Below, one piece after another: positions 462 through 3,453 of a DNA stretch of 64,000 bases; positions within the stretch are counted from its first letter, which is position 1, and each line of letters starts with the position of its first letter. The DNA is from a virus, in IMG/VR virus record IMGVR_UViG_3300009181_000044, positions 1 to 64,000 of that record, one strand, 5' to 3'. The translations under genes and the position numbers were made by a program. The notes below the pieces were generated by a model that saw nothing but the letters and a program-made list of their open reading frames with translations, was not told the DNA's origin and did not search any database.

Positions 462-521
462 TTAGTATAAATTGATAAAGTTTAAGACTAGACACTTTGA
501 GTGGATTGCCTACAATCACGG

Positions 522-581
522 AAATCTAGTGTGCTGGGAGGAGCTCGCGACTTACGGGGATCCAGTAACACACTAGAATTT
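522..581 (+). promoter_or_regulatory. structured 5' leader element
   Basis: In the long leader upstream of the 654 gene, AAATCTAGTGTG (522-533) pairs with CACACTAGAATTT (569-581), a 12-bp stem with one bulged A. Directly inside it CTGG (534-537) pairs with CCAG (562-565), leaving a purine-rich internal loop. One copy of the TTTAGGGTCA motif follows at 589-598. This could be a cis-acting RNA controlling the 654-1749 operon; I recognise no riboswitch or ribozyme class. Confidence 0.45.
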
Positions 582-653
582 GCGTAGATTTAGGGTCAAT
601 GCACAATCAAAGTAGACTAGTCTAAAGGTTTTGGGAAAACTACGTTTAAAAAA

Positions 654-1430
654 ATGCTACAATTAAGAAAACTAACTATAACTGAATTACCACTTAACTT
701 AATTGCTACAATGACGGAAACTGAATTGGAGGATTGGGCTGTAAAGAACCAACTCAATCGCATGGGATCGTGGCTCTTGCCCCAACTTGTGGCGGCTTTT
801 GGTTCGTGGCGACTCATCCTAGTTGACGGCAAACCAGATGTTAAACTGACCCTAAAGCACAACTGTGAGTCTAGTTTAGAAGCTCAGGCATACTGGCGGC
901 TAAGCCGAATTCCACGCACGTGCCTATTAACCAAGCAGGTAGCAATTCCAGAGTATGCTGTGTTAACTCCACTAATCCTAGCAGGATTTAAGCGTATGCA
1001 GGCAGTTGGCTATGCGTCATGGCAGGGTTTAGAAAATTTAAGCTATGTCATAGAACCCCGTCTCTTGGAGGCAGTTTGTGTTGATGTGCCTGACTTAGGG
1101 TCAGAGCGACTATTGGAGATTAGACAACAGGGGTTAACAACACGCAGTGGCAAAAGTGCAGGTCAACTAAAGTCAGCAGAAACTACTTGGAGCTTGAATG
1201 GAATATCGGACACTGAGTTGGGACATCTACCCAAATTAACACAATCCATATTAGCTCAAATCTGGCTGGCCCATCCGGTTCACAGAAGTGGGCTTATGAT
1301 TTTAGATCCGGGCAACTGGGATCACATGCCAGAACCACTAATTGCACCCACAATATTTAAACAACCCATTAAAGAATCTGAAGTAATAAACGCAAAAGAA
1401 ACAGCAAAAACACTACTACCGTGGATGTAA
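654..1430 (+). CDS. conserved-looking phage protein of unknown function
   Basis: 258 residues, soluble, with no signal peptide or membrane segment. Leucine- and tryptophan-rich, with a central acidic stretch (DVPDLGSERLLEIRQQGL) and a C-terminal half reading like a compact alpha/beta domain. No motif allows a functional call. ATG 654 has only an A-rich upstream region and no good Shine-Dalgarno, so initiation may depend on the leader fold. It is followed after one base by the HTH gene at 1432, so the two are co-transcribed. The gene carries two copies of the YTTAGGGTCA motif (847-856 and 1094-1103). Confidence 0.7.
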   Translation: MLQLRKLTITELPLNLIATMTETELEDWAVKNQLNRMGSWLLPQLVAAFGSWRLILVDGKPDVKLTLKHNCESSLEAQAYWRLSRIPRTCLLTKQVAIPEYAVLTPLILAGFKRMQAVGYASWQGLENLSYVIEPRLLEAVCVDVPDLGSERLLEIRQQGLTTRSGKSAGQLKSAETTWSLNGISDTELGHLPKLTQSILAQIWLAHPVHRSGLMILDPGNWDHMPEPLIAPTIFKQPIKESEVINAKETAKTLLPWM

Positions 1431-1431
1431 G

Positions 1432-1749
1432 ATGAAATACAATAAAGAAATCACTGACCGTATTATAGCTGACTACAAGGCTAAGGTGCCAGTTCGAGAT
1501 ATAGCTAATGCAATTGACGTACCAGAACGCTCAATTATAGCAAAATTAAGCTCTTTAGGAGTTTACGAGAAAAAAACGTATGTTAATAAACGAGGTGAGC
1601 TGCCCGTAAAAAAATCCGAGCACATTGAACGCATAGCACAACTGCTTGAGGTCAATTCAGAGACCCTAGAATCGCTGGAAAAGGTAAATAAGGGAGTACT
1701 TAAGTTAATTGAACTTAAATTGACCAAATCTGACCCTAAACCAGAATAA
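1432..1749 (+). CDS. small HTH protein, paralogue 1 of 4
   Basis: 105 residues. Residues about 8-45 (ITDRIIADYKAKVPVRDIAN, then PERSIIAKLSSLGVYEKKTY) form a helix-turn-helix of the resolvase/sigma-like type, followed by a basic linker and a C-terminal helix (LESLEKVNKGVLKLIELKL). The layout is the same as in the proteins at 3145, 4266 and 9308; this is the most diverged and the only one on the plus strand. A DNA-binding regulatory role is inferred from the fold; no phage regulator name fits. The 3' end carries a TGACCCTAAA motif (1731-1740), and a strong terminator follows. Confidence 0.75.
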   Translation: MKYNKEITDRIIADYKAKVPVRDIANAIDVPERSIIAKLSSLGVYEKKTYVNKRGELPVKKSEHIERIAQLLEVNSETLESLEKVNKGVLKLIELKLTKSDPKPE

Positions 1750-1768
1750 TTGCCCATAATTCGACACA

Positions 1769-1801
1769 AGCCTACTTAATTTCGGTTAAGTAGGCTTTTT
1801 T
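1769..1801 (+). terminator. rho-independent terminator after the HTH gene
   Basis: Stem AGCCTACTTAA (1769-1779) pairs with TTAAGTAGGCT (1786-1796) around a six-base loop, followed by a T run to 1801. It ends the plus-strand operon. Confidence 0.9.
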
Positions 1802-1937
1802 GCGTCTGCTCTAATCAGGTCAAATCAGGCTATTTTGCGGCACCACTGCAATTGTTACGGTTTAGGGTCAGTAGAACTCAAAGGTTACACTTTAGGGTCA
1901 GAACAGGAACCTATGGGTAAAAATCAAGAATTTGCAC

Positions 1938-1971
1938 TTGACAAGTTGAACACACACTGGTAAAATGGCGC
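1938..1971 (+). promoter_or_regulatory. promoter of the GGCGC class (cassette 1, no palindrome)
   Basis: TTGACA (1938-1943), 17-base spacer, TAAAAT (1961-1966), immediately followed by GGCGCAG. The GGCGC after the -10 is shared with cassettes 2-9. This copy lacks the palindromic spacer. It drives the candidate small RNA at 1973-2064. Confidence 0.65.
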
Positions 1972-1972
1972 A

Positions 1973-2064
1973 GGCACGTCGAAAATTTGCGATGTGGTTT
2001 ATTTTACGCAAAACAAAGCCCCCTCACCGCGACGTGTAGGGGGCTTTGAACTCGCCAGTTTTTT
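1973..2064 (+). ncRNA. candidate small pseudoknotted RNA
   Basis: Downstream of the 1938 promoter: GCACGTCG (1974-1981); hairpin TTTGCG (1986-1991)/CGCAAA (2007-2012); hairpin CAAAGCCCCCT (2014-2024)/AGGGGGCTTTG (2038-2048). The 13-base loop of the second hairpin contains CGACGTGT (2030-2037), which pairs fully (one G-U) with 1974-1981, making a pseudoknot. Six T residues at 2059-2064 could end the transcript about ten bases after the stem. No ORF is present. Function unknown. Confidence 0.5.
2010..2048 (-). terminator. hairpin terminator on the minus strand
   Basis: The 11-bp stem 2014-2024/2038-2048, read leftward, is followed by a U-rich tail (TTTGTTTTG), fitting a terminator for the minus-strand transcript that carries the tRNA. 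The same stem is part of the plus-strand small RNA. Confidence 0.5.
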
Positions 2065-2743
2065 AGTGGTTGTCTAAGTGCAGCTGCCAAGCCGCACACT
2101 GGTTTCCTCAGTGGTTCTCTAACAGGACTTCTGGAAGACGGTCTTCACGGCCTGACCCTAAACTGCACACTGCCTCACTGACGTTACTGTGAGCATACCG
2201 GTGGTTAGGGGAGTAATGCGCTACGCTTCCAACGCTTGCGCCCTTTTTAACGACTTAGGGTCGAGCCGGTTATATTGTTGCTCCCGCTCGGACTAAAGCA
2301 GGGACTAGCCTTGTAACGTGGACAATTACGACTGATTAGAGACCGCTGCAGTTTAGGGTCATTAACGCTACTGGGGGTTCCACCCAGATTACCTGACTCA
2401 TAGGTCAAGCTCTTAAGGTCTTAGATGATAGCTGTATTTATAGAGTTCTTTCTCTTCTAGTTTTGTATTCACACTCATAGTGGAGTCGGGAGGAGTATAG
2501 ACTTTGCTCCGAGCCTAGGGTTACGTACTATTTACAAACTACCACAAGGGATTTATGTTTAGGTTCGGTTCCTGACCCTAAGCTGCGACTAGCGGTGTTG
2601 TAGTAACACGCACACTAGCTGCGATTGCTTGGGTTTCGCTAGACTTGCACTAGCTCATCAGAGGAATATGGTGGGCGGTGTGTAGCTTCTCACACCATCA
2701 AGTTGTTATCAGATTCGTAAATCTGTCGCATAACACCCAAAAC
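2049..2743 (-). ncRNA. candidate large structured non-coding RNA next to tRNA-Glu
   Basis: About 700 bases without any usable ORF, directly 3' of the tRNA-Glu on the same strand and closed by the hairpin at 2014-2048. It is dense in stems, for example GTTAT/ATAAC enclosing AGATT/AATCT (2704-2734), GGTGTG/CACACC, GCTAG/CTAGC, GTGTT/AACAC, CTGGG/CCCAG (2371-2387) and CTCAC/GTGAG. A perfect 15-bp long-range helix pairs 2153-2167 with 2347-2361, and a 9-bp helix pairs 2264-2272 with 2574-2582; these cross, so they imply a pseudoknot or alternative folds. Phage-borne giant RNAs of the GOLLD and ROOL classes also sit beside tRNAs; membership is untested. Confidence 0.45.
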
Positions 2744-2818
2744 TGGTACTCGGCAGGAGAATCGAACTCCTCTTTCCGCCGTGAAAGGGCAGCGTCCTAA
2801 CCGATAGACGAGCCGAGC
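2744..2818 (-). tRNA. tRNA-Glu (anticodon TTC)
   Basis: 75 bases with CCA encoded. The acceptor stem GCTCGGC pairs with GCCGAGT (one G-U), followed by discriminator A and CCA at 2746-2744. The anticodon arm has loop CTTTCAC with anticodon TTC; the T arm is GAGGAG-TTCGATT-CTCCTG in outline. Promoter at 2919-2947 upstream. Phage tRNAs typically compensate for codon-usage or tRNA-cleavage stress. Confidence 0.93.
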
Positions 2819-2918
2819 AGGATACTAAGGGCTGTGGCTCGGGTAATTTATTCCCCACAATTAAGACGCATAACGGATAAATCCCGTTTCCGCTGTCACC
2901 CTGAATTAATATATAATA

Positions 2919-2947
2919 ATTATAACGTAATCAAGCTCGGTAATCAA
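2919..2947 (-). promoter_or_regulatory. minus-strand promoter of tRNA-Glu, TTGATT-17-TATAAT
   Basis: -35 TTGATT (complement of 2942-2947), 17-base spacer, TATAAT (complement of 2919-2924). It belongs to the same TTGATT class as the promoters of the 4266 gene and of 3090-3118. The transcript would start near 2912 and run through the tRNA. Confidence 0.7.
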
Positions 2948-3089
2948 GTAAAAATAAACAGTCGTTGTTATCAGAACTAACTTAGGTGAATTTAAAAAAA
3001 TTAATTAGGTTGACTAAGTGTTCATTAACAAACGGGCGGCCGGGTTTTCACGGTCATTCATTAAGCCCTTCCCGACTGTTTATAAATAA

Positions 3090-3118
3090 ATTATACAGCA
3101 AATAGGGTCGTCAATCAA
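3090..3118 (-). promoter_or_regulatory. minus-strand promoter in non-coding DNA, TTGATT-17-TATAAT
   Basis: -35 at 3113-3118 and -10 at 3090-3095 (complement), 17-base spacer. Just downstream, CGACTGTTTAT (3074-3084) is complementary over 11 bases to ATAAACAGTCG (2955-2965), closing a domain of about 130 nt. The 2819-3144 stretch holds no ORF; it appears to be transcribed leader or ncRNA upstream of tRNA-Glu. Confidence 0.6.
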
Positions 3119-3144
3119 GTGAAGATTTTCTGACCCTAAATTGC

Positions 3145-3453
3145 TCAAGGCAGGCGAGCTGCCAAGAGTTCGAGTGCTTCGTGGGTTGCCTTTTCCAGGC
3201 TTTCCAGCACTTCTTCACTAGCGCCCACTTTGTAGGCAATCAGGCTTACCAGCTGAGCCTTGGTCACGCGAGTGCCAGTAGCCTTGCTTTTGGCCTTGTA
3301 CACGCCTTCGCGGCTGAGCTTGGCCACGATGCTGCGGGTAGATTTGCCCAGTTGTAGGGCAAGGATTTCTACAGCCAAGCCTTGGCTGTAACCCTGCAAG
3401 AGTTCAGCCGTTTGTTCGGCGGTGTAGTTGGTTTTGGTAGCTTCAGTCATCAT
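3145..3453 (-). CDS. small HTH protein, paralogue 2 of 4
   Basis: 102 residues. HTH core SQGLAVEILALQLGKSTRSI then VAKLSREGVYKAK, and the shared C-terminal helix LESLEKATHEALELLAARLP. It has the same length and architecture as the proteins at 1432, 4266 and 9308. Two consecutive ATG codons (3453, 3450) follow AAAAGGACAT; spacing favours the second. Own promoter at 3491-3519. GC is visibly higher than in the neighbouring minus-strand genes, hinting at separate acquisition. Probable DNA-binding regulator; target unknown. Confidence 0.75.
   Translation of the reverse strand: MMTEATKTNYTAEQTAELLQGYSQGLAVEILALQLGKSTRSIVAKLSREGVYKAKSKATGTRVTKAQLVSLIAYKVGASEEVLESLEKATHEALELLAARLP

Follow-up and report, generated by a model that had tools for sequence, protein, structure and literature searches.

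A conserved tRNA-Glu-bearing phage RNA with a predicted type I hammerhead ribozyme, probably representing a new family of RNAs that are large and modular

The analysed DNA, referred to as the window, comprises bases 1-64000 of a viral record of 98,857 bases. Its terminase is approximately 50% identical to those of Demerecviridae (T5-like) phages, which indicates that the source is a tailed phage and distant kin of T5. The locus described here is situated between two convergent genes, A1 and A2. The longest open reading frame in 1750-3144 encodes only 53 amino acids, in agreement with the original prediction, which had pointed to about 700 bases without ORFs. The following features could be assigned:

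1432-1749, plus strand: gene A1, small protein weakly matching DNA-binding regulators (D5-like or others)
3145-3453, minus strand: gene A2, small protein weakly matching DNA-binding regulators (D5-like or others)
2919-2947, minus strand: promoter, -35 TTGATT (2942-2947), 17-bp spacer, -10 TATAAT (2919-2924)
2829-2901, minus strand: D0, 5' three-way junction (covarying alignment A2)
2744-2818, minus strand: tRNA-Glu (UUC) between D0 and D1, 3' CCA encoded (ARAGORN; Rfam tRNA, 50.9 bits)
2674-2738, minus strand: D1, three-way junction (covarying alignment A3)
2569-2666, minus strand: type I hammerhead ribozyme, predicted from covariation, window fold and pattern scan
2366-2458, minus strand: 3' domain module, three covarying hairpins (alignment A4)
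2347-2361, minus strand: inverted motif copy TGACCCTAAACTGCA, 5' arm of a 15-bp pair
2153-2167, minus strand: motif copy TGCAGTTTAGGGTCA, 3' arm of the 15-bp pair
2010-2045, minus strand: intrinsic terminator, AGCCCCC...GGGGGCT hairpin (2017-2045) followed by TTGTTTT

The original prediction for this locus was a large, structured non-coding RNA with tRNA-Glu, a minus-strand promoter and a terminator hairpin, and all of these elements were recovered: TTGATT-17-TATAAT lies exactly at 2947-2919, tRNA-Glu (UUC) at 2818-2744 and the hairpin with its T-rich tail at 2045-2017. Among the matches listed, a promoter of the same type (TTGA, a spacer of 17 to 20 bases and TATAAT, at most 110 bases upstream of D0) is present in 42 of the 51 loci with enough sequence, while a GC-rich hairpin followed by TTTTGTTTT is found in all 11 aligned group B loci. 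Based on the promoter position, the RNA would start at about 2912. The parts are arranged in the order promoter, D0, tRNA-Glu, D1, hammerhead, modular 3' part and terminator, and the minus strand was assigned as the RNA strand because of the tRNA, together with the promoter and ribozyme. Synteny and covariation, as well as the promoter and terminator, support the reading that the region encodes a conserved structured minus-strand RNA of approximately 0.9 kb, extending from the promoter (2947-2919) to the terminator (2045-2010). Folding of the single sequence neither proves an RNA nor gives its strand, since the minus strand of 2745-2049 folded alone reached a z-score of -0.85, with 4 of 20 shuffles equally stable, and the plus strand of the same stretch one of -3.38. 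The many stems seen originally were confirmed in part: four domains covary well above controls, but the minus-strand fold is no more stable than shuffled sequence.

Relatives were gathered with the A0 protein (gene at 654-1430) and the A2 protein, yielding 5 and 76 loci, respectively. In 45 non-redundant loci, the window included, the A1-A2 gene pair bounds a mostly non-coding region of 586 to 1879 bases; for this set, L070 and L073 were excluded prior to counting, nine duplicates or near-duplicates were removed and contigs ending before A1 were not used. Among named phages no relative of A2 was found, and the similarity to the RNA was limited, among the matches listed, to tRNA-Glu and neighbouring tRNAs. 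The exact D0 pattern was without match in GTDB genomes. The set was widened by two pattern scans of viral contigs to 247 sources; the sample was gathered via related proteins and patterns, so that the proportions given below are not natural frequencies.

An alignment of 11 close relatives displayed short invariant blocks between compensating stems, including CUGAUGAG-stem-CGAAAC, which we take to be the core of a hammerhead ribozyme. The partners of this core are located downstream of it, namely stem III (CCC...GGGU), the cleavage base C and stem I (UCCU/AGGA). In the window, the ribozyme is composed as follows:

2662-2666 and 2569-2573, minus strand: stem I, UUCCU paired with AGGAA
2655-2661, minus strand: core CUGAUGA
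2638-2654, minus strand: stem II, GCUAG paired with CUAGC
2634-2637, minus strand: core GAAA
2575 and 2574, minus strand: U16.1 and C17 by consensus position, stem III being long
between 2574 and 2573, minus strand: predicted cleavage site, between GGGUC and AGGAA (hammerhead consensus, GUC triplet)

A type III layout, in which GGGU upstream of D1 serves as the stem III strand, leaves stem I unpaired and was rejected; as the downstream strand (GGGUC followed by AGGA) pairs fully, the type I layout was adopted. The lowest-energy structure of 2668-2566 calculated by ViennaRNA is exactly the hammerhead fold, with an energy z-score of -1.62 and 10 of 200 shuffles as stable. The type I core (CUGANGA, GAAA, the A15.1-U16.1 pair and a cleavage base other than G) is present in the window and in 27 aligned sequences, and three stems with an open stem I are given by covariation as well as by the minimum-energy fold of the window. 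From these sequence features, the element is a complete type I hammerhead and the central feature of the RNA, which the original prediction had missed. Its unusually long stem III closes a stretch of approximately 60 nt, and its stem I measures only 4-5 bp. A single hammerhead (E 5e-21) and a single D0 occur in the whole record, which gives no hint that a circle is released by two cuts.

The 27-sequence alignment was prepared from 34 sequences found by regular expression, leaving out five close relatives and two variants with a long stem II (together L031, L044, L049, L051, L052, L055 and L065). Its rows were picked by a pattern fixing the core and GGT[CA], and the conservation of the core is thus partly by choice, while stem II bases and outer stem positions were left unfixed. 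In the stems, 94.2% of cells are paired, compared with 24-45% in slid controls. Seven of the 13 pairs changed on both sides, with 42 double-changed cells against 12.1 in shuffles, and the covariation score of 0.332 exceeds those of shuffles (0.121; 0 of 500 as high) and of slid controls (0.028-0.101). The regular expression matches 34 of the 45 regions, to which L003, L008 and L063 can be added as long-stem-II variants (37 of 45); no recognisable hammerhead was found in the other eight (L006, L035, L057, L059, L060, L061, L062 and L067). A strict automatic pattern was matched on the RNA strand of 29 of the 45 regions, on the other strand of none of the 45 and in 5 of 1800 dinucleotide shuffles. 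When the cleavage base was left free, the 43 automatic placements among the listed loci gave C in 40 cases, A in two, T in one and G in none; the lone T (L037) is probably a misplacement, since alignment A1 has GTC there. A lengthened stem II holding GACCCTAA, which is complementary to the usual cleavage strand, was observed in L003, L008, L044, L063, L064/L065, L206 and L213.

The Rfam model RF00163, whose cut-off is a detection score and not a chemical feature, gave no match in the window record and none over the cut-off in eight records. A scan at the gathering score of five contigs with compact hammerheads (L102, L091, L099, L096 and L131) was also empty; since textbook hammerheads in other contigs are missed too, the silence of Rfam weighs little against the ribozyme. 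The CUGANGA / GAAA / NUH core, the three stems and the open stem I are shared with bacterial and phage type I hammerheads (RF00163, PMC3088659) and with compact type I hammerheads in other viral contigs, e.g. L102, L089 and L099. In contrast to the RF00163 hammerheads, the present one has a stem III closing approximately 60 nt, is located inside a conserved RNA of about 0.9 kb with tRNA-Glu and scores below the Rfam cut-off. Arrays of compact hammerheads, undetected by Rfam at the gathering score, were also seen in other viral contigs, with four copies in L102 and seven matches in L091.

Outside the ribozyme, three further domains carry covariation. D0 consists of a GGGU/GCCC outer stem, a GAC/GUC stem, a variable hairpin and a UGUGG/CCACA hairpin, and combines near-invariant sequence with a covarying hairpin. 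In alignment A2 (25 of 26 sequences, L082 being left out), 97.1% of its cells are paired and its covariation is 0.238, versus at most 0.052 in slid controls and with 0 of 500 shuffles as high. For D1, composed of GG/CC closing pairs, GUUAU/AUAAC, a CAGAU/AUCUG hairpin and a GGUGUG/CACACC hairpin, alignment A3 (25 sequences from a set of 30, with ends trimmed and L011, L031, L037, L048 and L082 left out) gave a covariation of 0.387 (0 of 500 shuffles), one slid control reaching 0.293. Its terminal hairpin is 90% paired and all six pairs changed on both sides; in the inner stems 62% of cells are paired, a value that results at least partly from the alternative pairing of one subgroup. In the 3' module, a nearly invariant AAATACAGCTATC / TCTAA stretch is surrounded by invariant GAAAGAAC, GTAA and GCG blocks. 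In alignment A4, made of 16 sequences (15 of the initial 16, without L003, and L127), 94.1% is paired, both partners have changed in 11 of 14 pairs and covariation amounts to 0.535, against at most 0.142 in slid controls. Alignments of the whole region gave no covariation bonus, and domain-wise alignment was needed. Covariation across homologous regions, proposed originally as a check of the RNA, is present in the hammerhead, D0, D1 and the 3' module. The structure, strand and conservation of the predicted RNA are thus established, together with its intact ribozyme core. Other 3' modules are patchy and apparently shuffled among relatives; several relatives have little RNA past the ribozyme, and in the subgroup L049, L051, L052, L055 and L058 a terminator-like hairpin follows it almost directly.

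By regular expression, at least 53 distinct D0 elements were identified in the 247 sources. Among the matches listed, a hammerhead is located downstream of D0 in 45 of the 53 (43 by program, L072 and L208 by eye), six have none (L057, L059, L062, L211, L237 and L246) and in two the contig ends after D0 (L022 and L243). Together with the eight of 45 regions mentioned above, these six listed loci indicate that the hammerhead is not essential to every member. In 16 of the 53 listed D0 loci, the same strand encodes a tRNA at most 2.6 kb further downstream, and all 16 are tRNA-Glu; in L170, seven other tRNA genes and a tmRNA lie further on. In some loci, the window among them, the tRNA-Glu is situated between D0 and D1; in others it immediately precedes the ribozyme, the hammerhead core starting approximately 5 nt past the tRNA in L110, L204 and L212, with L032, L053 and L072 alike. 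A weaker second D0-like element (R2 E 6e-4) was seen about 220 nt downstream, start to start, in L095, L128 and L149, and in L128 it directly precedes tRNA-Glu.

The exclusive association with tRNA-Glu and the short distance between tRNA and core would both suit a tRNA operon leader and trailer, i.e. an RNA that only makes tRNA-Glu, with D0 as leader and a hammerhead trimming the 3' trailer. This explanation is unlikely, as 37 of the 53 listed D0 loci are without a tRNA within 2.6 kb, many of them still having a hammerhead, and as D1 separates the tRNA of the window from the ribozyme.

The locus had also been likened to the GOLLD and ROOL RNAs. Its size, its phage location, the tRNA inside or beside the RNA and the variable and conserved halves agree with such a relationship: GOLLD is likewise a large phage RNA near or around tRNAs with one conserved and one variable part, its linkers sometimes contain tRNAs (PMC12286853), and ROOL is likewise a large phage RNA near tRNA genes. 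In the search with covariance models that had been proposed, no match at E<=10 was obtained for GOLLD (RF02032) in the window record and four relatives, and for ROOL (RF03087) none at E<=10 in three records including that of the window, the control genomes being equally matchless and cmscan silent. In the whole Rfam library, no credible family except tRNA was found and the covarying domains match none; matches to mir-3135, Tymo_tRNA-like and Twister-sister were far below cut-off and were taken as chance. The conserved heart of the present RNA is a hammerhead, and a word search of the GOLLD/ROOL cryo-EM paper (PMC12286853) did not return "hammerhead". The RNA may assemble in a GOLLD- or ROOL-like manner, but it is quite unlikely to be a distant cousin of these two, building a multimeric cage in which a linker contains the tRNA and the hammerhead is incidental.

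Phage T5 encodes RNAX (AY543070, 40848-41566; L248), by annotation a stable RNA of 719 nt and unknown function, which adjoins a tRNA-Arg gene in this distantly related phage and has a tRNA-like stretch near its 5' end. No match of the R1 or R2 covariance models was found in RNAX (best R1 E 1.7, elsewhere in T5) and no hammerhead was seen. Comparison with the window RNA by blastn gave short matches only, with E>=0.037 and mostly at the promoter, and no homology was found.

The 15-bp long-range helix of the original prediction does exist as an inverted pair at 2153-2167/2347-2361, which consists of inverted copies of TTTAGGGTCA with flanks. Beyond this motif, 5.91 of 8 flanking positions are paired versus 5.71 after shuffling (139 of 2000 shuffles as good), and the flanks pair with their own partners scarcely better than with those taken from other loci. 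As there is no covariation beyond the shared motif, the helix is not counted as evidence. Across the 45 loci, the TTTAGGGTCAG motif occurs 2.49 times per kb in the RNA region, 0.68 on the A1 side, where it lies within about 2 kb, and 0.03 on the A2 side, the RNA region being approximately 80-fold denser than the latter; both orientations are about equally frequent in the RNA region and on the A1 side. In the record, the cluster was observed in both orientations at 589-3140 of the window (A0/A1 genes and RNA) and at 98793, and all seven exact 11-mers lie at 846-3140 or 98793. The density and two-way orientation near the RNA point to a DNA function as well, and the cluster is a candidate for an origin or for an array bound by regulators; at the RNA locus, no clear origin signal emerged from the GC skew. 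The motif overlaps the cleavage strand of the ribozyme in most members, and several keep the ribozyme without the exact motif; in L004, L011, L015, L018 and L072 the hammerhead pairing is kept while the motif is departed from. A DNA-level role of the motif at the cleavage strand seems to make part of the sequence constraint there unrelated to the ribozyme. The GACCCUAAA copies were also considered as antisense ribozyme switches and rejected, since by eye they do not follow departing cleavage strands.

It is very unlikely that the locus is a DNA element alone, i.e. a replication origin or regulator-binding array of TTTAGGGTCAG iterons in which the RNA-like pairing is a by-product of inverted copies. 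The motif densities, the confinement of the exact 11-mers and the 15-bp pair without covariation could all be explained in this way, but the hammerhead core, D0, D1 and the 3' hairpins could not: their paired changes fall outside the motif, and the hammerheads of the five loci leaving the motif still pair. Moreover, a DNA role can coexist with an RNA. That the hammerhead is an inactive relic retained as a structural element is highly improbable too: the long stem III, the short stem I and the 4 of 18 assayed consensus hammerheads that were uncleaved under the assay conditions (PMC3088659) would be in line with it, but the chemistry-critical positions are kept in the 27 sequences, picked as these are by the core pattern, and G was never placed at the unconstrained cleavage base.

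The RNA encoded by the minus strand of 2912-2010 very probably belongs to a new family of phage RNAs that are large, modular and self-cleaving. RNA polymerase would start near 2912 and produce an RNA of about 900 nt, in which the three-way-junction domains D0 and D1 would fold around tRNA-Glu. The type I hammerhead would fold during transcription and cut after GUC (2574/2573). Of the two products, the 5' piece would measure approximately 339 nt, comprising D0, tRNA-Glu, D1 and the ribozyme and ending in a 2',3'-cyclic phosphate, and the 3' piece would measure approximately 564 nt, extending from a 5'-OH end to the terminator. The cut would fix the 3' terminus of the conserved half with the tRNA and release the faster-evolving 3' half, while the tRNA could be released by host nucleases such as RNase P and others. 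We infer this transcription, cutting and use of the two halves.

Among RNAs, the large ornate ones of phages are some of the least understood. What GOLLD and ROOL do is called poorly understood (PMC12286853), and hammerheads have been described in prophages and phage intergenic regions, with the processing of long phage transcripts suggested as a role (PMC3088659). Among the open-access papers surveyed by title and abstract beginning, none describes a hammerhead inside a large tRNA-carrying phage RNA. Tentatively, the RNA could belong to an undescribed class of giant phage RNAs defined by self-processing, in which the built-in hammerhead splits the molecule; the half with tRNA-Glu and the ornate half would act separately, or come together again, during infection, perhaps as an RNA assembly serving to deliver or protect tRNA-Glu. 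As the position of the built-in cut is predicted exactly, a simple in vitro test could reveal whether self-processing takes place in a giant phage RNA. The RNA would also point to a natural function that a hammerhead can have in phages, and its constant association with tRNA-Glu provides a functional clue.

Some further elements were observed around the locus. A second promoter (TTGATT 3113-3118, TATAAT 3090-3095; 2945-3118, minus strand) is located upstream of the large RNA and is followed by a conserved element starting ACAGTCGGGAAGGGCTTAATGAAT, which may be a separate small RNA. On the plus strand, a family of promoter-like sequences ending in a TGGCGC box occurs at 1938-1966, ~3735, 4056 and 4684; these are antisense to minus-strand genes and recurrent across relatives. 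Finally, a large hairpin (AGACTAG...CTAGTCT) is possible in the leader of the gene at 654-1430 (480-640, plus strand), which holds one copy of the motif.
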